This document shows, in pieces, positions 3,853-52,789 of a DNA stretch of 64,000 bases. The notes under the pieces were generated by a model, which had not been told where the DNA came from, did no database searches, and was given only the letters and a program-made list of their open reading frames with translations. Origin of the DNA: Meghimatium bilineatum (lineage: Eukaryota; Mollusca; Gastropoda; Stylommatophora; Philomycidae). Positions within the stretch are counted from its first letter, which is position 1. Every line of letters begins with the position of its first letter. The stretch is from the NCBI GenBank assembly GCA_034231615.1, contig CM067318.1, forward strand, positions 36,923,382-36,987,381, given 5' to 3'. The translations under genes were made by a program, and so were the position numbers.

Positions 3853-6098
3853 GTAAACATTATCATTATATTATGTAATCTGTTCAACTCATAGGGACTT
3901 GCAAACAAGCAGAGAACTTTATATACATGTAAACATTATCGTTGTATTATGTATCTCATTGTTCAACTCATAGGGATTTGCAAACAAGCAGAGAACTTTA
4001 TATACAGGGGAACATTATTGTTGTATTATGTAATATTACTGTTCTTCTACGTTTTTTGTTTGGTTTAATGTTGAGACATAGAAGTCTTTATAGGGATACA
4101 TTCTGTTTGTGGAAGCCCCACAACATTTCAACAGTTTATTTATGTATTTACTCCTGTTGTTTGTTTATTTCAATCTCCTGGAATTATGAACAATAAAGCT
4201 TTTGTAAAATAGAAAGCTTCTTCAGATCTTGATTTCATACCAAGAAGACCAACTCTCAATGGTGTGGAATACTTTGAGAAGACGCCTAATCAGATGGGAT
4301 AATGCTGAAAGTGGATGTGCTGGGCCGGAAGGTGCAAAATAATGTAGCTCACTGTGAAACCAGCAGCACAACGTGATTCACATTCCCTGGTGGAAATCAT
4401 ACAAACTTTTTTTGTTATCAGAGAACCAACACAGAAGAAGAAGAGGGAATAAATTATGTGTGTTTTGTGGCTTTTCTAATGTTCTGCAACTTGCAGAGTT
4501 GGAGTCATGAGCTTCAGCTTCCAAGCCAAACATCCTTTCCTGCCAGAAGTGTCCATAGCACCCCCAACTCCGGTCCGTGCCCATTCGGGGGGTGTGTGGG
4601 GCAGCCATCTATGCAAATCCCACCTTCCGATTATGCAGGGCTAATTTGTTTGCCCCTTTCAGAACTCTCCCAGGACATTGTCATGTCTTGCAGGAGTTCC
4701 CATATGAACAGTCAAGGGTGAAAGAAGAAGATGAGGTTGGAAAATCCTGGATTGATAACATCAAGGAATGGTCTGGGCATGATTTTCCTAAACAATCCTC
4801 CAAATGACTGAGGATATAAATGTTTAGAGAGCTTTTTGTGTTGATATCTCCAGTGTGACACTCCTATGACACTGACATGTTATGTGTCATGTTGTTAATA
4901 TTATTATATGCCACCAGTCCATACCTGGGGTACCATGTGTACATAGGCAGTTAGGACCATGATCAAAAGACTGGAGCTCATTTCATGTTCTCAAGTTTTA
5001 TATGTAATGATGGGTTCCAGAATGGTGCATCACGTATGAAAATATAATTTTACAGTGAAATTCCATGGGACTGTCACAAGAGGAAGACTCTACTATATTA
5101 GCTTCTCACATACTAAGAGTTTACTGTTGCATAATGGTTGGTCTTCTTCTTCATTCCTTCTCAAACTCCTGCAGATTAGCAGGATGTCCAGAGAATGGAA
5201 TGTGTTGTGTCAGGTCCACACCTGTGCTGCGATATTGGCACCTTTCGGACTGACACATCTGACTTCAGCATGGCTTCTGGTCACTGACTCTATATGGAAT
5301 GGGACAATCAACTCCACACCAGCACAGACTTAGCCATCTCTTATGACTTGCATGGAAGGTAAAGAGTATTGCTGTTTTTTGTGTGCTCCCCAATAACACA
5401 CTGACGGATGGTTGGTCTTATAGGCAGTTGTTCAGACCTTTGAGACGTCGAGATGTGGGTTTTTACCCCTTTGAGTAGAAGACTTCTTCTCAAAGTGTTG
5501 TAGACTGCAGAGAGTTGAAGTCTTCTTCAGCATTCATTCTCAAACTCCTCCTGGATCTCTCTTGTAGCAGGACATTGGTTCTACTAAGTTTCCAGCAGGA
5601 TGTAATCCAGAGAATGGAAATATGTTGTTGCCGTTGTTTTTGCACCAGTGTCCTGACAAATCCATCTTTGGCAGTGAAGAAGCCTTCTGATTATCAAGAA
5701 AGCTGAATAAACCCAACATTACACAAGAGGATGATCTGGGGAACTCTGGAGAAACTAACAAATTGAAACAAACAACATACAAAATGTACACATTGAGCAT
5801 TATAAAGGAATACTGTGCACCATATTTATCTTGAGCAGAATGTTAGTTGTACTGTAATTCATTTTGACATTTAAAATTTGTTCCCCATAAAAGTACATTT
5901 CATATTTTTTGCAGATTGGAACTGAATGGCCATCGACGAAGATTAACATGGGAGGCCGCCCCTCGAAGCATTCACGACGGAATTCAATCAGCAATTGCAA
6001 GTAGTGATTGTCTTGTTTTTGACACAAATATTGCACAGCTCTTTGCGGACCATGGGAACCTTGGAATCAATGTCACTATCACCATCTGTGAAAGATAG
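3660..6098 (+). CDS. SIAH1: SIAH E3 ubiquitin ligase, last two coding exons
   Basis: RING-type E3 ubiquitin ligase (Drosophila seven in absentia; SIAH1/2) that directs substrates to the proteasome. Only the C-terminal substrate-binding (TRAF-like) domain lies here: exons 3660-3852 and 5915-6098, about 125 residues. Exon 1 of the pair reads [18 protein letters not shown], then [19 protein letters not shown] and [15 protein letters not shown]. The second reads [18 protein letters not shown] to [10 protein letters not shown]. All are near-identical to animal SIAH. The 2.06 kb intron splits the Arg codon (AG|A) between cag|gtaaac and gcag|att. The RING and SIAH zinc fingers must be encoded upstream of the window. 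The end is ICER-stop, a little longer than the vertebrate ending. Oddity: the 3' part of the first exon with its donor is repeated twice more downstream. The paralogue (1 or 2) cannot be decided; the symbol is by family. Confidence 0.93.
3806..4030 (+). repeat. Triplicated SIAH exon end plus splice donor
   Basis: Three tandem units of about 76-79 bp start at 3806, 3882 and 3961. Each holds gttcaactcataggga, caaacaagcagagaacttta and the exon/intron junction. Unit 1 is the true exon end (cag|gtaaac). Unit 2 reads cat|gtaaac, so GT is kept but the exon-side base is changed. Unit 3 reads cag|gggaac, so the donor is destroyed. Confidence 0.9.
4031..4149. other. SIAH intron, nothing recognised
   Basis: Short AT-rich stretch between the triplicated exon end and the family C copy. 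Open frames here look incidental. Confidence 0.5.
4150..4265 (+). repeat. Family C repeat copy
   Basis: Shows the family C order: tttcaatctcctggaattatg, gcttcttcagatcttgatttc, ataccaagaagaccaactct, ggaatactttgagaagacgc. Same order as the copies at 18000, 28171, 38215 and 39275. Confidence 0.6.
4266..4445 (+). repeat. Degenerate SINE-A 3' part
   Basis: Has aatgctgaaagtggatgtgc, tgggccggaaggtgcaaaat and a gaagaagaag tail at 4434-4443, in the family A order. Heavily diverged. Confidence 0.4.
4446..4714 (+). repeat. Family D repeat
   Basis: Aligns with 39395-39690: gtggcttttct, gcagagttggagtca, gtgtccatag, gttcccatatgaac. Both copies lie just downstream of a family C copy, so C and D may be parts of one longer element. 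Open frames across it are incidental. Confidence 0.5.
4715..4870 (+). mobile_element. LINE C-terminal fragment
   Basis: Encodes [15 protein letters not shown], then, with frame drift, a LLQMTED.NV.RAF-like stretch. This resembles the tail downstream of the reverse transcriptase in RTE/CR1-type LINEs ([16 protein letters not shown] pattern). Short, 5'-truncated and broken. Confidence 0.55.
4871..5141. other. SIAH intron, nothing recognised
   Basis: AT-rich sequence without a clear repeat or reading frame between the LINE scrap and the SINE-A copy. Confidence 0.4.
5142..5392 (-). repeat. SINE family A copy
   Basis: Reverse orientation: tcttcttcattccttctcaa at the left is the (GAA)n-tailed 3' end, followed by gcagattagcaggatgtcca, the cttcagcatggcttctgg block and the catggaaggtaaagagtatt head. 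Confidence 0.85.
5516..5690 (-). repeat. SINE family B copy
   Basis: Reverse-strand B copy with cttcttcagcattcattctc, ctggatctctcttgtagcag, tttccagcaggatgtaatcc and a diverged gccgttgtttttgcaccagt in place of the gcgcaaataaaacggc block. Confidence 0.75.
5915..6098 (+). CDS. SIAH1: SIAH terminal coding exon
   Basis: Acceptor gcag at 5911-5914. Encodes the last 60 residues of the substrate-binding domain; TAG stop at 6096-6098. Confidence 0.92.
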
Positions 6099-9640: not shown

Positions 9641-12166
9641 ACAAAGTTAAACAACAAAAAAACTAAATTTGTTGCATCAAAGTCAGCCCAGACAAACAAC
9701 AGGAGGTTCGAGAGAACCAGCAAAACATTAGACAAGGTGAACCTATACCTGAAGTCATGGAGGCACCAATCACAATGAGAGAACTGGAGCATGCAATATC
9801 CAAATTGAAAATGAAAAAGTCCCTTGGAGCTGATGGAGTGTCCAATGAAATGATTAGAAACCTGGGAAGTGCAGCAAGAGCAAAGCTACTGCAGATCTTT
9901 GACACAAGCTGGTCCACAGGTAATGTACCACAGGCGTGGAGAGAAGCAATAATGATGCCACTCCTCAAATCAGGAAAAGATGGCAACACAGTCTCCAACT
10001 ACAGGCCCATCAGCCTCACAAGCTGTCTATGTAAAACAATGGAACGCATTATCAATCTTGGGATGCAGTGGTACCTTGAAAGTGAAAACCTTCTGGTATC
10101 ACAGCAAGCAGGTTTCAGACAGTGCTACTCTACTGAAGATTAGGCAACCTACCTCTCCCAAGAGATTGAGGATGCCTTCCAAGAAAAGAAACTGGTACTA
10201 GCAGCATGGATAGACCTCAGGAAAGCATTTGATAAGGTCTGGAAAGAAGGGCTCCTAAAGAAATTGCGAAATTGCAGGGTTAGCTCAAGAATGTACAGAT
10301 GGGTAAAAGCATACCTTCATAATAGAAGAGCCAGGGTACAATTAGATGGTCGCAAGAGCAAGAAAGTTCTACTGCGTCATGGAGTCCCCCAGGGAGGAGT
10401 CCTGTCACCCACACTTTTCTTGGTTTACATCAATGACCTAGTTGCTGAACTACCACACGGGATCAGGGTGGCAATGTATGCTGACGACCTGGTGATCTGG
10501 TGCACGGAAGAACATGCAACAGTGGCCACTAAACAAATACAAAGAGCTATTGATGCCCTAACCTTATGGGCTAATAGATGGTGCGTCAGCATTAACACAG
10601 ATAAGTGCAGCACTACACTCTTTACCCTCTCACCAAAACAAAAAGCTGGTCATATCAAGATAGATGGAGAGCTCTTGAAAGAAGACAAACAACCCACATA
10701 CCTCGGAGTTACTTTTGATGATAAGCTGACATGGAAGCAGCACATAAACAAAGCAACAACAAAAGCCAGGAGGAAGCTGGCTATCCTGAGAAAACTAAGT
10801 GGAACCACATGGGGAGCCAGTGGAAATATACTCAGTAAAGTTTACCAGCAAGGCATAAGACCACACCTGGAATACGGTTCAGCTGCGTGGTGTCCTGCAT
10901 CACACACCACATTACAAGATCTAGATAAAGTGCAAAACCAGGCACTTAGAATAATGTTGGGAGCAATGAAATCAACACCCATAGCAGAGATGCAGAAAAT
11001 GGGAAGAATGCAAACACTTGGCGAACGCAGAGACACAAAAGTACTAATTCAAGCAGAAAAGTTTCAGTGTATGCCAAGTCATCCAATGAAGGAAAGATTT
11101 CAAAATCTAGCAATGGGACGACTGAAAAGGAGCAGCTTTATCCATCAAGCTAAACGACTCCGTAGACAACTTACAGACCTACCTGAAGTTGACAGCCCCT
11201 TAAGGTCTGTACCAGAGCAAACCCCGTGGAGTGAAAGCCATGGAATGCCAATATACATTCAGACCCATGTGAAAGGAATACTAAGCGAGGACGAACAGAA
11301 CAGTGTGCAGCGAATGACAGTCACCCTCAGTTTCCTGGATGAGGAATATCCACAAGATATATGGGTCAGAGTGTACACAGATGGGTCAGCACAGAATGCT
11401 GTGAGGAATGGAGGTGCAGGTGTATATATAGAATATCCACACAAGCCTAGAGATACAATCAGAACACCGACAGGAAAATTCTGCAATAATTATGATGCAG
11501 AAATCCAGGCAATTAGTGTGGCAGCTAAAAAACTGCTGAGCTCCAACTCTGACCTACAGCCTGTGGTATTCCTGACAGATGCAAGGTCAGTGCTTCAAGC
11601 TCTCCAGTCTGGAAAACTAACAGACTTAAAAAAACTACTTAGCGAATTGTCTTACCAGTATAGGGTAACCATGCAGTGGATACCCTCTCACTGTGGAATA
11701 CCAGGAAATGAAAAAGCAGACCAACTGGCTAAGGATGGTGCTGCCGAAGACCAACCAGATATACCAATCACCTACCATCAGAAAAAACAAATGATAAAGT
11801 CAATAAGAAAGCCACAAACACCAACACAAGATGACTATCACAATATGAACAGATCAGAACAAGTTATAATTCTACGTCTCAGAACAGGACACAACCGACT
11901 CCGCAGTCACATGTATACAAAATTCAAGATTGGCAACACGGCCATGTGTACATGTGGACAGGCAGCACAGAGTGCCAAACATATACTTCAAGAGTGTTCT
12001 GAGCATGAAACGCTGAGGCAGACATATTGGCCAGAGGAAACAACACTGGAATCAAAGCTCTATGGGACACTGTATGAACTACAAAAGACAGTGAGTTTTA
12101 TTAAGGAGACAGAATTACAGATATAGACATGTTTCAAGTGAACGAAAGAAGAAGAAGAAGAAGAAC
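9641..12166 (+). mobile_element. I-group non-LTR retrotransposon, 5'-truncated
   Basis: A LINE copy inserted in a pogo-like transposase. It starts within the ORF2 region between endonuclease and reverse transcriptase, and ends with gaacgaaagaagaagaagaag, a (GAA)n tail at about 12140-12166. A 7-bp direct repeat, ttgttta, sits at 9634-9640 and 12167-12173 and may be a short target duplication. The 5' truncation is typical of target-primed reverse transcription. Confidence 0.88.
9667..12126 (+). pseudogene. LINE ORF2: reverse transcriptase, RNase H, zinc knuckle
   Basis: One frame is open from 9667 to the stop at 12124-12126, apart from a single TAG at 10141-10143 (GAA GAT TAG GCA) between STED and ATYLSQEI; a Gln codon is the likely ancestor. 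Reverse transcriptase blocks: ADGVSNEMIRN, NYRPISLTSCLCKTMERII, AAWIDLRKAFDKVW, HGVPQGGVLSPTLF and the catalytic YADDLVIW (about 10477-10500), then thumb (PTYLGVTFDDKLTWKQHI, KVQNQALRIMLGAMKS). An RNase H domain follows with its acidic set: VYTDGSAQN, YDAEIQAI, FLTDARSVLQAL, and WIPSHCGIPGNEKADQLAKD. The C-terminal CTCGQAAQSAKHILQEC is a CCHC-type knuckle. RNase H plus this knuckle places it in the I/Jockey group. One stop in about 820 codons means a fairly recent copy. The segment after 10264 alone is 620 codons. Confidence 0.92.
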
Positions 12167-26290: not shown

Positions 26291-27900
26291 GGATATGCTA
26301 GGCGTTTTGTATAAAAAATACAAAAGGCAGCAGGCAGCATGGGCAGATAAATGGATGGTAAAGATCAATGCTGAAAAGTCCCCATCAACTCTTCTACTCT
26401 CTCAAATAAGGACAAAGCAGGAGAGATAAAACTCGGAAATGTGCATATCCAAACAGAAGACGAGCCGGTGTACTTGGGCACTGCGCTAGATAAGAGACTG
26501 ACATGGAGGTCTCACAGTGAAAAAATAGAAGTAAAGGCAAGAAAGAAACTTGCCTTCCTGAGGAAATTGGCAGGAACAAACTTGAGGGTCAATGAGGCAA
26601 CCGTAAAGAAGGTATATACAGGTGCAATTAGACCAGTAATAGAATATAGATCAACAGCATGGACTTCAGCAGCCAAATCCCATCGACAAGCCCTGAACAA
26701 GGTACAAAATCAAGCACTTCGCCTTATGACAGGTGCCATGAAGACCTCTCCCATAAATGAAATGGGAAAAAATTACAGGTATCACCCCTTAACAAACAGG
26801 AGAGACACTAAAACCATGGTCCATGCAGAAAAGTACAAGCGCATGCCAGCACATCCAATGAGGTGCAAATACAGTGACCTAGCCAGTGGAAGACTGAAGA
26901 GGAGCAGTTTTATACGCCAATCCAAAAAAAAACTAAGCAGAGAATATAAGGAAGAACTACCAGACATAATAAGAAATATAACACCAACACTTTTTCTAGT
27001 TCCGTGGGAGCAATACCCAAATCTCACTACAAAAAATCTTAGAACCACCATAAACAACTACCACACTATGATAGAACTGAATAATCTCCAAAAGAAAACA
27101 ATAGTATACAACATGATTGAAGATATGTACCCCAGAGAAGCATGGATACAAGTATATACCAACGGATCAGCAATCAGAACAGTGAAGAATGGAGGTGCTA
27201 GCGTGTACATAAATATCCAGAAAAAGAAAATGAATCCACATGTTCACCAACTGGAATATTCTGCCCCAACTATTCTGCAGAAGTACATTCTTTAAAGATT
27301 GCTGCAGACATAATTAAAAACACAACACGCCAATGACAACAGGTGGTATTTCTTACTCATGCTATGTCTGTCCTACAAGCCCTTGAGAGCGGTAAACTGC
27401 TAGACCTGAAGGAAGCCATGCGAGAAGTGAGCGTCCAAAGAAGAGTAATACTACAGTGGATACCATCCCAATGTGACATACCAGGAAATGAAGAGGCAGA
27501 TAGACTGGCAAAGGATGGAGCAACACAAGAACAAAAAGTCCAAGAAATCACCTACCAAGAAAAGAGAACCCTCATCAAAGCCATCAGGAAAGTCGACCAC
27601 CCAAAAGACAATTACCACTATCTCGACAGAGCAGAGCAGAGCAGATCTTTCGCCTCAAAACAGGACACAAACATTCACTTAAATAGACTAAGACTGGTCC
27701 CATCACCTCTGTGCCCTTGTGGACAGGCAGCACAGACCGTTAAACATATCATACAAGACTGCAATATACTAAACCAGTTAAGGGAAGAACACTGACCCAC
27801 GGAGATGGATATTCCACAGAAAGTTGTATGGGAGCACCAGGAGCATTCAAATACAGCAGAATTTATTAAGAAAACAGGACTTGCTGTGTAGACATGTCAA
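26291..27900 (+). pseudogene. I-group LINE: RT thumb, RNase H and knuckle
   Basis: C-terminal half of an ORF2 of the same group as 9667-12126 but another subfamily. Seen: AAWADKWMVKINAEKS, VYLGTALDKRLTWRSHSEKI, KARKKLAFLRKLAGT, KVQNQALRLMTGAMKTSPIN, RRDTKTMVHAEKYKRMPAHP, RLKRSSFIRQSKKK. RNase H is degenerate: VYTNGSA (Asp to Asn), VFLTHAMSVL (Asp to His) and WIPSQCDIPGNEEADRLAKD (His to Gln). CPCGQAAQTVKHIIQDC is the knuckle. A frameshift/deletion lies at about 27235-27340. The 3' end gtagacatgtcaaactgcga, acgagaagaagacg matches the 12.1 kb LINE end. Confidence 0.9.
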
Positions 27901-42869: not shown

Positions 42870-43799
42870 GACTTTCTAGCTACTCTCTGCTGTTGAGCTG
42901 CTGCATTTCTCCTCTTTTCACAAGATAATGCATATTTTTTGACTGTAGAGTGCCATTATGTGTAAGTTCTTCCCATGTATCTTGGTCTATTTCAAAGGCT
43001 TTCAGTGAGGTCTTTAATGAATTTTTCTTTTGGCCACCTTGAAATTGTATACTCTTCTGCAACTCACCATAGAGAAGTATCTTTGACAGACCTGATGATC
43101 TGTCTAATGAATTTGTGTCAGCATGAGTGTCAATGCTAGGGAAACTAGATCTGTCTAATGAATTTGTTATTCAGAATCTTGTCTTGCCATCTGATGTTTA
43201 TAACTTTTCTGAGACAAGTTGTGTGCAGGTGATTGAGTTTCTTCGAATAATGTCTATACACAGTTCATGTTTCACTAGCATACAACACTGGGAGTACCAC
43301 TGCTCTGTAAACTTTAAGCTTAGTGGATTAATACCATTTCTATGCCACACATTTCCAATCTGTCGAAATTGCTGCTTGCCTTGATGATCCTTGTATACAC
43401 TTCATCATCAACATTGGCATTTTGTGATAATGTACTACTTAGGTATGTGAATCTGTTCACAACTTTCAATGCTACGCTGTTTACTTTTGCAAGGTGCTGG
43501 TTGTAACATGACTTCTGTTTTCTCCGAGTTAATAATAAGTCCAAAGTTGGTACAGGCTTTGGAGAATCTATCTCTAATATTTTGTGGATCAGCCTCAGAG
43601 TTGGCATTTACGGCAGTCATCAGCAAATCTGGGATCTCTGTGTGTGATTTGACTTTGGATTTTGCTCAGACTTGCAAGAAGGTTAAACAATTTTCCATCA
43701 ATGCGACATATGATGTCTACTCCTAAGTCCAGATCTCTGAAAGCATCATCCAATATAGCAGAGAACACGATACTAAACAGTGTAGATGCTTTTGTTTGT

Positions 43800-43925
43800 T
43801 TGTTTTTCGTTCGCTCCATTGTAACCATCACGGATATCCGTGCGATTTCCGCCGGGAGCGTGATTACGTTGTGCCACCGTTATGCGCCTTGTAGGCCTAG
43901 CACATCCGATTTCGGCATGAGTGTA
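43800..43925 (-). repeat. SINE-body variant inside the LINE
   Basis: On the minus strand gccgaaatcggatgtgctag, gcctacaaggcgcataacgg, tggcacaacg parallels the SINE A/B body (gaagtcggatgtgtcaggc, gcgcagata, gacacaacg). It may be a third subfamily. Confidence 0.5.
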
Positions 43926-44099: not shown

Positions 44100-44220
44100 G
44101 GAACAGGTAATGAATTTTGCTAATCACTGGAGACAGAAAATAACACCCACAAATCAACGTTTCAACCAAAAGGTATATCAAGACAAAATACACAACAGAA
44201 AACGACAAGTAAGAACAACT
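44100..44220 (-). mobile_element. Penelope-like terminal fragment with hammerhead-like core
   Basis: On the minus strand gtcgttttctgttgtgtatt, cttgatataccttttggttg and aaacgttga parallel the arm of the palindrome at 50987-51287 (gtcgttttctgttgtttgtc, cttgaaaaaggttcaatttg, agccgatacgttga). The CUUGA...short hairpin...GAAAC layout resembles the hammerhead ribozymes of Penelope-like elements, but the CUGAUGA box is not intact. Confidence 0.4.
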
Positions 44221-44228
44221 CTATAGAC

Positions 44229-44537
44229 CAGGGATCGGGAACCTTTTTGTCTGAAAGAGCCATGGACACCACATATTTTGAAAATAATTCTGTGAGAGTC
44301 ATACATTATGTTTAAAACTAAAAATTCAAGTAAATGTGTGCATTTTGTGTAATTTCAACACTAAAAGTACAAAAATTATTACTGCAGTAGCTCATTTGTA
44401 GAATGAAATATTGATATGCAATTAATATGTATATCAAAGGAGTCTAAAGAAACATTTTTGTAATAATTGAACATTTGTCTGCAAGCCAGATCAATAGAGC
44501 CACATCTGGTTCGCGAGCCATGGGTTGCCGACCCCTG
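44229..44537. mobile_element. hAT MITE, 309 bp, perfect 8-bp target duplication
   Basis: Ends cagggatcgggaacc and ggttgccgacccctg are near-perfect inverted repeats of the Charlie/hAT type. Flanked by ctatagac at 44221-44228 and 44538-44545. No coding capacity. It sits in the Penelope-like fragment. Confidence 0.92.
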
Positions 44538-50030: not shown

Positions 50031-50648
50031 TTTTAATGTTAGAGGGTAAATAAAAACTCACACTGTACATGACATGGCAACAGCAAGGTCATGCAGCCTT
50101 TATCACACAAACCACATACTCTGCAACTCTCTTACGGGATACATGCAGTATTGACAAATTTTTAAACACAATTACAGTTCATTAGTCCATTGTAGTTGCT
50201 TTGTTTTCTGACAGAATTTAGATAATAGCTTAAATTATTGAAGTTAAAAATCATAATTTAAGGGTTCATATAGCAGATCCAATGTGCATGTTACAAAAGT
50301 TAACACAAGAAGTATTTTGTAGTTTATTTGGTGATCTAAATGTTTATGAAGATTATGCTAGATTAATGTTTGAAGAAGTCTGTCTTCACTCACATTGGCA
50401 ACACTGTACAGAAAATCTGATGTACTGTAACAGTATTGCACATAAATTAATGTAATGTAATAGATATAGCTTCCTCATACAATGTAAAAATGAATGTTGC
50501 CCTAAATATAAACTCAAAGAAAACAAAACAAAAATGAAAATACAGTTTATTATACTGGAGTTTCTGGGAACATATAATAGTGATGTAAGAGAAAGATCAA
50601 TGTGTGTAATACCAAGTACATTGTTAAATATAATTAGGGGCTGACTAT
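50031..50648. other. Unassigned AT-rich DNA
   Basis: Nothing recognised. Confidence 0.35.
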
Positions 50649-50657
50649 TCATTACGT

Positions 50658-51287
50658 CAAATAGTAATGCAAAATGATGTAAAAAGGTTACTAAAACACT
50701 TACCTAGCCTATTAATAAAAATATATTTTTAAGAAAAAAAACAAAAAACATACAATAAAACTAAACAGGACAATTCTCAACGTATCGGCTCAAATTGAAC
50801 CTTTTTCAAGAGACAAACAACAGAAAACGACAAAATAAAAAAATAAATAGATGTCTATATTTCATCAAGCCCTCGTCTCCATAATAGCGCAGGGATGGCA
50901 ACGCATCTAGTCAAGGTGAAAATGCGTGCATTCATTATAAACAAACCGAAAGTGGGAAATTAGAGACACTAATGATGAGTGCAAAATTCCCACTTTCGGT
51001 TTGTTTATAATGAATGCACGCATTTTCACCTTGACTAGATGCGTTGCCATCCCTGCGCTATTATGGAGACGAGGGCTTGATGAAATATAGACATCTATTT
51101 ATTTTTTTATTTTGTCGTTTTCTGTTGTTTGTCTCTTGAAAAAGGTTCAATTTGAGCCGATACGTTGAGAATTGTCCTGTTTAGTTTTATTGTATGTTTT
51201 TTGTTTTTTTTCTTAAAAATATATTTTTATTAATAGGCTAGGTAAGTGTTTTAGTAACCTTTTTACATCATTTTGCATTACTATTTG
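50658..51287. repeat. Perfect inverted repeat, 301-bp arms, 28-bp loop
   Basis: Arms 50658-50958 and 50987-51287 match base for base with no gap; the loop is 50959-50986. The arms carry a Penelope-like segment (gtcgttttctgttgtttgtc) and the hammerhead-like core near 51134-51163 (mirrored at 50782-50811). A 12-bp direct repeat, tcattacgtcaa, lies at 50649-50660 and 51352-51363, so the insertion may be 50661-51351, with a 64-bp one-sided tail at 51288-51351. Confidence 0.95.
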
Positions 51288-51363
51288 TTCATTAGGTTAC
51301 TGCGGCACCATCCACTTTGTCGGACACCCTCTGGCCATTTGGTTATTTATATCATTACGTCAA

Positions 51364-52789
51364 CAAGGTTGTAGGACGGGGGGACAGTTGATGTCAACAA
51401 TATTAATTTTTGTACACACCAATTACTGGGTAAATTGTTAGAAGTTGAAACATTTTTCTAAAAAATGTGAAACACATGCAGTTTTTTTTCTTACTTTTTT
51501 CTACTAATTGGTTATGGTGGTTAATGTTATGTTTGTTTGTCATAATTTTTCAGGAAATAGTCTTTGATTTCTTGACAGTTTTTGACAAGGTAAGGTTGGG
51601 GGGGGGGATGAGAATTTGACAAACATTTTTTGACACTTCTGTGGACAGCCTCTTACAGAACCTGTAATCTTGTCTAAAATAAAGTGCTACAGGAATCACT
51701 GCACATCATAGCAAGAACTCCACCATTTCAACCCACATGTTGTATATGTAGATAACCCATGTATCGCTGGCCTATGCTTGTTGAGTTAGTGAATGTAACA
51801 TAGAACAACCAACCACCTTTATGTTCAAACAACAAGTGTAATGCTGTCATTATTTGGTAACCTGACATGATTGTACACTGATAGAACCATAGATGTTCAG
51901 TTCCTCACAGAAAACAAGAGCATGTATATTGATGTCTTAACTCAGAACTACAGATACATTGTCTGTGGGCAAGGGAGGGTTACATAAAAATATAGTAATT
52001 TCTTTATTTTAGTGGAATTTTTGTGACATTTAAAAAAAAAACAATTATGGGAGGGCTGCTTTTTATTCTTTTTAGCTTGCTTCCTAGTAGTAAATCTCAT
52101 AATCTGACTTTCAATGGGTGGGGGGTTTAACAGCCTCCTTCCTCACCCACCTTACTTACAGGCTTGCAATAACTTCCTATTTTTACAGTATCATATGCTG
52201 ATGGACCACCTTTACAAAAACCATCACTACAAGGGCATATACATGATTTTGTAGCTTTTCTGAAAGTATTCCAATTCAAATAATTGTGCATGCTGTGGTT
52301 CTGATTTGCAATTAGTGCCTACTTGCTTATTTTATGGTTAATTAATCTAAATATTATATAAATAATTAATTTAAATATTAATTTTTTAGGGGTAAGAGTT
52401 AGGGTTAGTTATGTTTTACATAAATAACCCTAATATAGTTATATTAAAAAACAAAAATAATAAACATAAACATAGCCAAGGGAAATAATCAAATATATGG
52501 GCAGTAATTCCAAACCAGTTTCTATACTGTATTTGGGGTGAACAAAAGCTACAGCTATTGGAAACTGTACTGGTAATTTCTGCAGTCTTCAAGTTAATGT
52601 AAAGCAGATAAATGGAAATAAGAACTTCAAAAACAGTTATATGAAACAACATTTTGTACATATATTATACTGTCAACATATGGCAGGTTGGCCACACATA
52701 TTTAATTAAAAATGGAGAGTAACCAAAAAAAAATGTTGAAATTAGTGGTATCAATGACAACAGTTGTCCCATCAGTCCAAAACATAAAT
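51364..52789. other. Unassigned AT-rich DNA
   Basis: Contains a G run at about 51599-51608. No gene; no repeat family recognised. Confidence 0.35.

Follow-up and report, generated by a model that had tools for sequence, protein, structure and literature searches.

Penelope-like elements (PLEs) are a third class of eukaryotic retroelements, and their insertion pathway is described as poorly known (PMC11167929). In Penelope elements, inverted pseudo-LTRs (pLTRs), one-sided tails and target-site duplications (TSDs) have been described, and palindromic junctions were ascribed to self-priming (PMC3846280). A PLE protein assayed in vitro cuts both strands and extends them, and its reverse transcription starts at two adjacent internal sites on the RNA with a 'tail' between them (PMC11167929). 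PLEs are also suspected to be the helper of metazoan retrozymes (PMC7229834, PMC7761336). Here, we analyzed a palindrome within a stretch of 64,000 nucleotides, the whole of which we refer to as the window. The palindrome is probably one recent PLE insertion, in which two short cDNAs meet in head-to-head orientation.

The family to which the palindrome belongs resembles Pen2a_Av and related Penelope elements of Adineta vaga in having an ORF with reverse transcriptase (RT) and GIY-YIG domains, pLTRs, an adjacent inverted pLTR that completes the insert, a short tail on one inverted pLTR and a TSD, which is 9 bp in Pen2a_Av (PMC3846280). The tail is 64 nt here versus 31 nt in Pen2a_Av. Unlike Pen2a_Av as presented in that report, the present family has many near-identical copies, with head-to-head pairs at 30 of the 38 loci first examined, and some copies, the window's included, comprise the mirror pair only, with no ORF between the arms (PMC3846280). 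PAc, a Poseidon element from Anolis carolinensis studied in vitro, shares the two adjacent internal RT starts whose interval is the tail, the cutting and extension of both target strands, and an upstream hammerhead motif (PMC11167929). However, the PAc start sites are inside the ORF, whereas in our family 114 nt separate the end of the tail from the first ATG of the ORF, and the PAc hammerhead overlaps the start codon, whereas the motif described below lies in the 3' UTR/pLTR and has a degenerate core. Each insertion here has one start site per side, unlike PAc in the published account (PMC11167929). L1 twin priming is similar in that the second target strand primes internally on the RNA, producing an inverted 5' part, and in having TSDs (10–20 bp), yet in our family the second start is confined to a narrow zone of the element and both primers copy the same RNA region to give duplicated arms, unlike twin priming as described (PMC4245944). 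Metazoan retrozymes, which carry type I hammerheads, have in common with the present locus a hammerhead-like motif and a small non-coding insertion. Relative to the published retrozymes, the window insert lacks tandem ribozyme repeats of 150–300 bp and stems from the 3' end of a PLE family that has an ORF (PMC7229834, PMC7761336). The present family joins both sets of published PLE observations, the inverted pLTRs, tails and TSDs on the one hand and the two-site, two-strand activity on the other.

The palindrome is by far the longest near-perfect inverted repeat of the window, the reported runner-up being 149 nt at 83%. Its arms (50658–50958 and 50987–51287) are exact reverse complements of 301 bp each (100%). 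Walked inwards, the pairing ends at 301, and the outward extension is 0, while tolerating one A/A mismatch gives arms of 304 nt with 22 nt between them. The 28-nt centre comprises 26 nt in which the left copy simply continues into the element (50959–50984) and 2 extra nucleotides (50985–50986) where the two cDNAs meet. The left cDNA (50661–50984, minus strand) is antisense to the 3' region of the element, consists of the arm and the 26 nt further upstream, lacks the tail, and is 100% identical to a PLE copy elsewhere from reference position R 4337 down to R 4014. The right cDNA (50987–51351, plus strand) is in the sense orientation, comprises the 301-nt arm and the 64-nt tail, and also has 100% matches elsewhere. 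The tail (51288–51351, plus strand), present on one side only, lies between the proximal and distal reverse-transcription start sites, and the fetched tail-bearing copies end at or near the same place before unique flank begins. A 12-mer direct repeat, the TSD, bounds the insert at 50649–50660 and 51352–51363 (plus strand). The last 3 nt of the left copy (50658–50660) are common to the arm, hence the insert proper is 50661–51351. Direct repeats of at least 12 nt arose in 0/2000 random placements of the same geometry, the longest being 11 nt. The exact 301-bp palindrome, 28-bp loop, 12-bp direct repeats and 64-bp one-sided tail of the original prediction were all confirmed by this recomputation.

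Both flanks belong to a single MITE-like repeat (approximately 50634–51655, plus strand, boundaries by eye) with imperfect terminal inverted repeats, and the insertion lies in its left terminal repeat. A second MITE-like copy in the window (approximately 22994–22660, minus strand, boundaries by eye) is uninterrupted and provides an empty site. The joined flanks aligned to this copy with a local score of 147 (200 shuffles, mean of 35.5, maximum of 51), most of which comes from the right flank; the repeat occupies only ~27 nt of the left flank, and the score was 140 even without joining. Because the second copy crosses the site with the duplicated word present once, the palindrome is an insertion, and the TSD on either side of the insert bears out the earlier proposal of a single event.

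We searched the genome (1.61 Gb, 32 contigs), which is eukaryotic and, judging by its LINEs, probably that of an animal, for the arm and for the tail. With 40 of 1214 initial candidates scored, the arm query listed 41 matches, including the window's two, all at 100% over 301 bp. A query of the arm end plus tail gave 100% identity in 40/40 scored matches, from 948 candidates, all on two of the 32 contigs. Thirty-seven stretches were fetched to cover the arm matches outside the window, giving 38 loci with the window included. In these, the arm forms the 3' terminus of an element that extends further and has its ORF upstream of the arm. Locus L092 reads, in order, partial ORF, pLTR, tail, leader, an open frame of 951 codons (936 counted from the first ATG) and pLTR. 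The pLTRs of L092 and L104 stand in direct tandem, as in PLEs, and the L092 frame carries RT and a C-terminal GIY-YIG in a single ORF, as PLEs do. RVT_1 was matched at 437–606 of the frame (E 0.0024 with the whole frame and 4.5e-4 with a fragment, under the Pfam curated cut-off) and GIY-YIG at 855–892 (E 0.0015 with the whole frame, under the cut-off), the GIY-YIG fragment reaching E 7.8e-05 and 23.3 bits, over the curated 22.6. NCBIfam, searched with the same frame to E 1, returned no match, and solved structures offered nothing relevant (two matches, E 0.17 and 0.32).

The RT and GIY-YIG ORF of other copies, together with inverted pLTRs, a one-sided tail and a TSD (at least 9 bp in 25/26 complete pairs), identifies the family as PLE. 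The original prediction had offered a young inverted pLTR pair of a PLE as one reading, and the siblings with their ORF, direct tandem pLTRs, inverted pLTRs and one-sided tail bear this reading out. A Penelope RT is present in the sibling copies, but the window itself yielded no PLE coding sequence by tblastn with the L092 frame at E 1, and no ORF start was seen within the arm or tail when translations were inspected by eye. Right-hand cDNAs of different insertions differ by a mean of 0.36% (2290/632887), in a sample picked by perfect arm match and thus biased to young copies, and on this basis the compared copies are young. In one flank of each of L082, L089, L090 and L100 we also observed diverged (69–75%) kin of part of the PLE 3' UTR, and an older repeat related to this UTR may be common in the genome.

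The 38 loci comprise, in our own grouping, 22 complete head-to-head pairs, 8 pairs whose left end is outside the fetched stretch, 5 single 5'-truncated cDNAs and 3 shortened or complex loci. All 22 complete pairs, including the window, have exactly one tail-bearing and one tail-less arm. Four further loci, drawn from the 40 tail-query matches independently of this hypothesis, followed the same rule (4/4) with TSDs of 12–14 bp, and three of the four are short symmetric mirror pairs like that of the window. The one-tail rule was therefore observed directly in 26/26 complete pairs, among fetched copies that were picked by full-length arm match or by tail and are enriched in tail-bearing arms. Of the 41 full-length matches to the arm, just two were identified as tail-less, one being the left arm of the window and the other lying in L094, and each has a tail-bearing partner. 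Insertions with two tail-less arms are thus probably not common, because more tail-less full-length arms would then be expected among these matches. The kind of element is known, and what is new is the pattern over its copies, in their tails, TSDs, arm agreement and break-off points.

Tail ends lie at arm position 356–365, and the tail-less arm stops ~65 nt earlier, at 297–302 in the 22 pairs and at 280, 295, 297 and 300 in the four new pairs. TSDs were at least 9 bp in 21 and 12–16 bp in 18 of the 22 pairs (12–16 bp in 22/26 overall), whereas pairing the left and right flanks of different loci gave at least 9 bp in 1/462. For L073 the search returned 4 nt, with a 13-nt repeat seen by eye ~9 nt beyond the tail, and L093 reached the search maximum of 30. 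Two of the three shortened or complex loci, L069 and L102, which are outside the 26 complete pairs, have 12-bp TSDs, but their left parts end at R 1972 and arm position 211, respectively, short of the proximal start. Because of these two, the proximal start is not absolutely fixed; it is a strong preference and not a law. Among the single-cDNA copies, a TSD was found in L071 (12 bp) and L090 (9 bp) only, while L068, L087 and L101 gave 4–5 nt.

We examined the two start zones for pairing between target and RNA, dropping L073, L092 and L093 from the 22 pairs. Inexact matches at the boundary further removed L084 (6 nt), L089 (0) and L103 (0) from the left side and L083 from the right. The tail side starts at RNA position 363–367 in 15/18 copies (366 in 7), and its microhomology is marginal, with at least 1 nt in 12/18 (p 0.13), at least 2 nt in 8/18 (p 0.019) and at least 3 nt in 4/18 (p 0.045). 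At the tail-less junction, microhomology of at least 1 nt was present in 15/16 (p 5e-4), at least 2 nt in 8/16 (p 0.012) and at least 3 nt in 6/16 (p 0.0013). The search for the longest TSD may favor overlap at the junctions, and the null counts overlap on both sides to compensate. In the window, the microhomology is the CAA common to arm and target. An RNA hairpin at 51246–51308 (plus strand) spans the arm/tail boundary and brackets the proximal start in its loop; 51244–51310 folds with a z of -3.8 (0/200 shuffles as stable) and the longer stretch 51240–51351 containing it with a z of -2.1 (7/200).

The two arms of each insertion were compared with one another at six polymorphic sites. The comparison covered 31 insertions; L080 and L069 were left out for their complexity or shortness, as were the five copies with a single cDNA, which have no left arm. 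L072, L086, L099 and the window had no informative site, in the case of the window within the overlap of its own arms. Left and right arms of one insertion differed in 2/102 comparisons, both in L077, so 26/27 informative insertions were fully concordant. Since two of the six sites are adjacent and probably represent one event, this per-insertion count is the safer figure. Between insertions, arms were discordant at 1335/3009 sites (44%). This agreement, observed directly, indicates that both arms of an insertion share the sequence of their source RNA, though it does not strictly show the same molecule. The absence of divergence between the window's arms would follow from one common RNA template and a young insertion. 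Conversion between arms, proposed earlier as a cause of their identity, is not needed if both copy one RNA.

We then defined X and Y as the element positions at which the left and right cDNAs break off, for all junctions except the complex L080; the single-cDNA copies L068, L071, L087, L090 and L101 have no junction, and the values of the four new loci are unrefined BLAST end points. The two positions lie within 40 nt of one another in 17/36 junctions, against a mean of 1.7 and a maximum of 8 on permuting partners (0/20000 as high). Leaving aside the four new loci and the window, the figure is 13/31 against 1.5 expected. The window has its X at 4014 and its Y at 4040. Some end points recur across insertions, namely R 1814 (L072, L099) and 1816 (L086), and 2848 (L078, L085), and the shared end at R 1814–1816 suggests that the RNA has a fixed 5' end or that copying meets a strong stop there. 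In the other 19/36 junctions the arms differ by more than 40 nt (left longer in 12, right longer in 7), and thus the shorter arm did not serve as template for the longer one. L091 and L092 are among the junctions whose insertions repeat adjacent sequence, as in polymerase-theta-type end joining.

The strongest alternative is a snap-back, in which there is only one cDNA, with its primer on the tail side, and its 3' end folds over and uses it as template to produce equal arms and a short loop. Self-priming on an antisense template has been proposed for palindromic PLE junctions (PMC3846280), and the 17/36 junctions with arm lengths equal within 40 nt are what such copying predicts. The window's loop contains short complementarity, the centre of L099 has a very short loop, and that of L082 is self-complementary and has no match to the element reference; both of these centres are hairpin-like. 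However, self-copying should traverse the tail, whereas the second arm stops before it in 26/26 complete pairs, and the stop zone of tail-less arms is the same in symmetric and asymmetric insertions. Moreover, the 12 junctions with a left arm longer by more than 40 nt are at odds with self-copying, and in the eight of these whose left arm was seen complete to its end (L067, L077, L079, L081, L093, L100, L103 and L108) the longer arm is the tail-less one and so was not copied from the tail-bearing cDNA. A snap-back is therefore an unlikely origin for the window, although it may contribute to some symmetric copies. The window belongs to this symmetric class and can be assigned to either two-strand priming or a snap-back, in neither case with certainty. 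Given that tail-less arms share one start zone whether the insertion is symmetric or not, we read the left arm in all cases as a reverse transcript made independently, and the agreement of X with Y as reflecting a common template end.

Two separate head-to-head PLE insertions, homogenized by gene conversion, would account for arms that are closer within an insertion (32/27092 mismatched positions over all overlaps) than right-hand cDNAs are between insertions (0.36%). This is very unlikely given that a single TSD encloses the whole pair, that junctions fall at very different element positions, and that the one-tail rule holds. An assembly foldback, which the original prediction had raised and which perfectly identical arms would fit, is extremely unlikely, as the TSD and empty site are both within the window and the same architecture recurs at many loci with differing breakpoints, flanks and TSDs. 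A foldback or MITE-type DNA transposon with no relation to PLEs, also raised earlier as a new foldback element, would show long perfect terminal inverted repeats with TSDs as here, but has practically no probability, being refuted by sibling copies that follow the same plan at many loci with their own breakpoints, flanks and TSDs, carry an RT and GIY-YIG ORF, vary in arm length and truncation and include direct tandem pLTRs, and by termini that are not symmetric, one end being the 64-nt tail outside the arm.

We consider two-strand priming on one RNA, with each strand using its own start site and the cDNAs then being joined, to be the best and a likely reading. In this scheme, an element endonuclease would cut both target strands, ~12–14 bp apart. 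One free 3' end would prime reverse transcription at the distal RNA start, generating the tail, and the other would prime at the proximal site, aided by 1–3 nt of RNA pairing (CAA with UUG in the window). Both primers would copy the same RNA towards its 5' end and, in the window, break off at nearly the same place, after which the host would join the two cDNA ends, with the 2 extra nucleotides seen there. Priming by both target strands on one RNA is what the one-tail rule and the concordance between arms indicate. A bolder proposal, on which our own judgment is evenly balanced, is that PLE insertion in vivo is obligatorily asymmetric, the two strands priming distally and proximally on the same single RNA molecule, which outlasts its first copying and is then read again. 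If so, each dual insertion would record one template twice, and short mirror pairs like that of the window would result from both reads running to the same 5' end of the RNA. In the open-licence PLE literature we found no description of a single RNA serving as template for both arms, although this is only weak evidence that none exists. The palindrome is a very clear record of PLE insertion, a process that is poorly understood, and models of insertion can be told apart using a young family whose many copies are nearly identical.

The arm also contains a hammerhead-like motif (51130–51172, plus strand; mirror copy at 50773–50815, minus strand) with a short stem I, a stem II hairpin and degenerate cores. 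These 43 nt fold as two stems with a z of -2.5 (4/200 shuffles as stable), and the enclosing 81 nt (51100–51180) with a z of -0.4 (64/200). Both core strands deviate from the canonical hammerhead consensus. Rfam hammerhead models gave no match in 50300–51800 at E up to 10, nor at E up to 5 in L092, the stretch that bears the ORF. The hammerhead part of the original prediction is partly supported, the layout being present in the arm, and we term the motif hammerhead-like only. Rfam microRNA-type matches in the window were mostly the palindrome itself fitting hairpin models, under gathering scores, and were set aside. A probable older relative of this part of the arm (44155–44208, minus strand) shares the upstream word and the downstream core of the motif, and its local score of 48 exceeds the highest value, 43, among 60 shuffled queries. 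It was not found with the long element reference at E 1e-3, and it folds no better than shuffles.

Short arm and tail patterns were also compared with viral contigs (25, 5, 28 and 0 stretches). Among the matches listed, none exceeded 34 nt and most were hardly longer than the pattern, so that they were treated as chance, and one viral-contig locus inspected by eye had no further likeness. A distant phage search returned short pieces only, at E 0.06 or worse (20 listed of 22 records).

Several other repeats are present in the window. A short hAT-like element (44229–44537, minus strand), with similar inverted ends and an 8-bp TSD (GTCTATAG), adjoins the hammerhead-like relative. A SINE-like insertion (approximately 43791–43919, minus strand), with an A-rich end and a 12-bp TSD, lies by eye inside a LINE reverse transcriptase fragment. 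A LINE remnant at 9667–12126 matches RVT_1 and RNase H, and a second at 26375–27795, whose frame 26375–27295 has no Pfam match, resembles it by look only. Tandem-repeat arrays are abundant in the window (48 rows, some overlapping), with units that are mostly minisatellite-sized.
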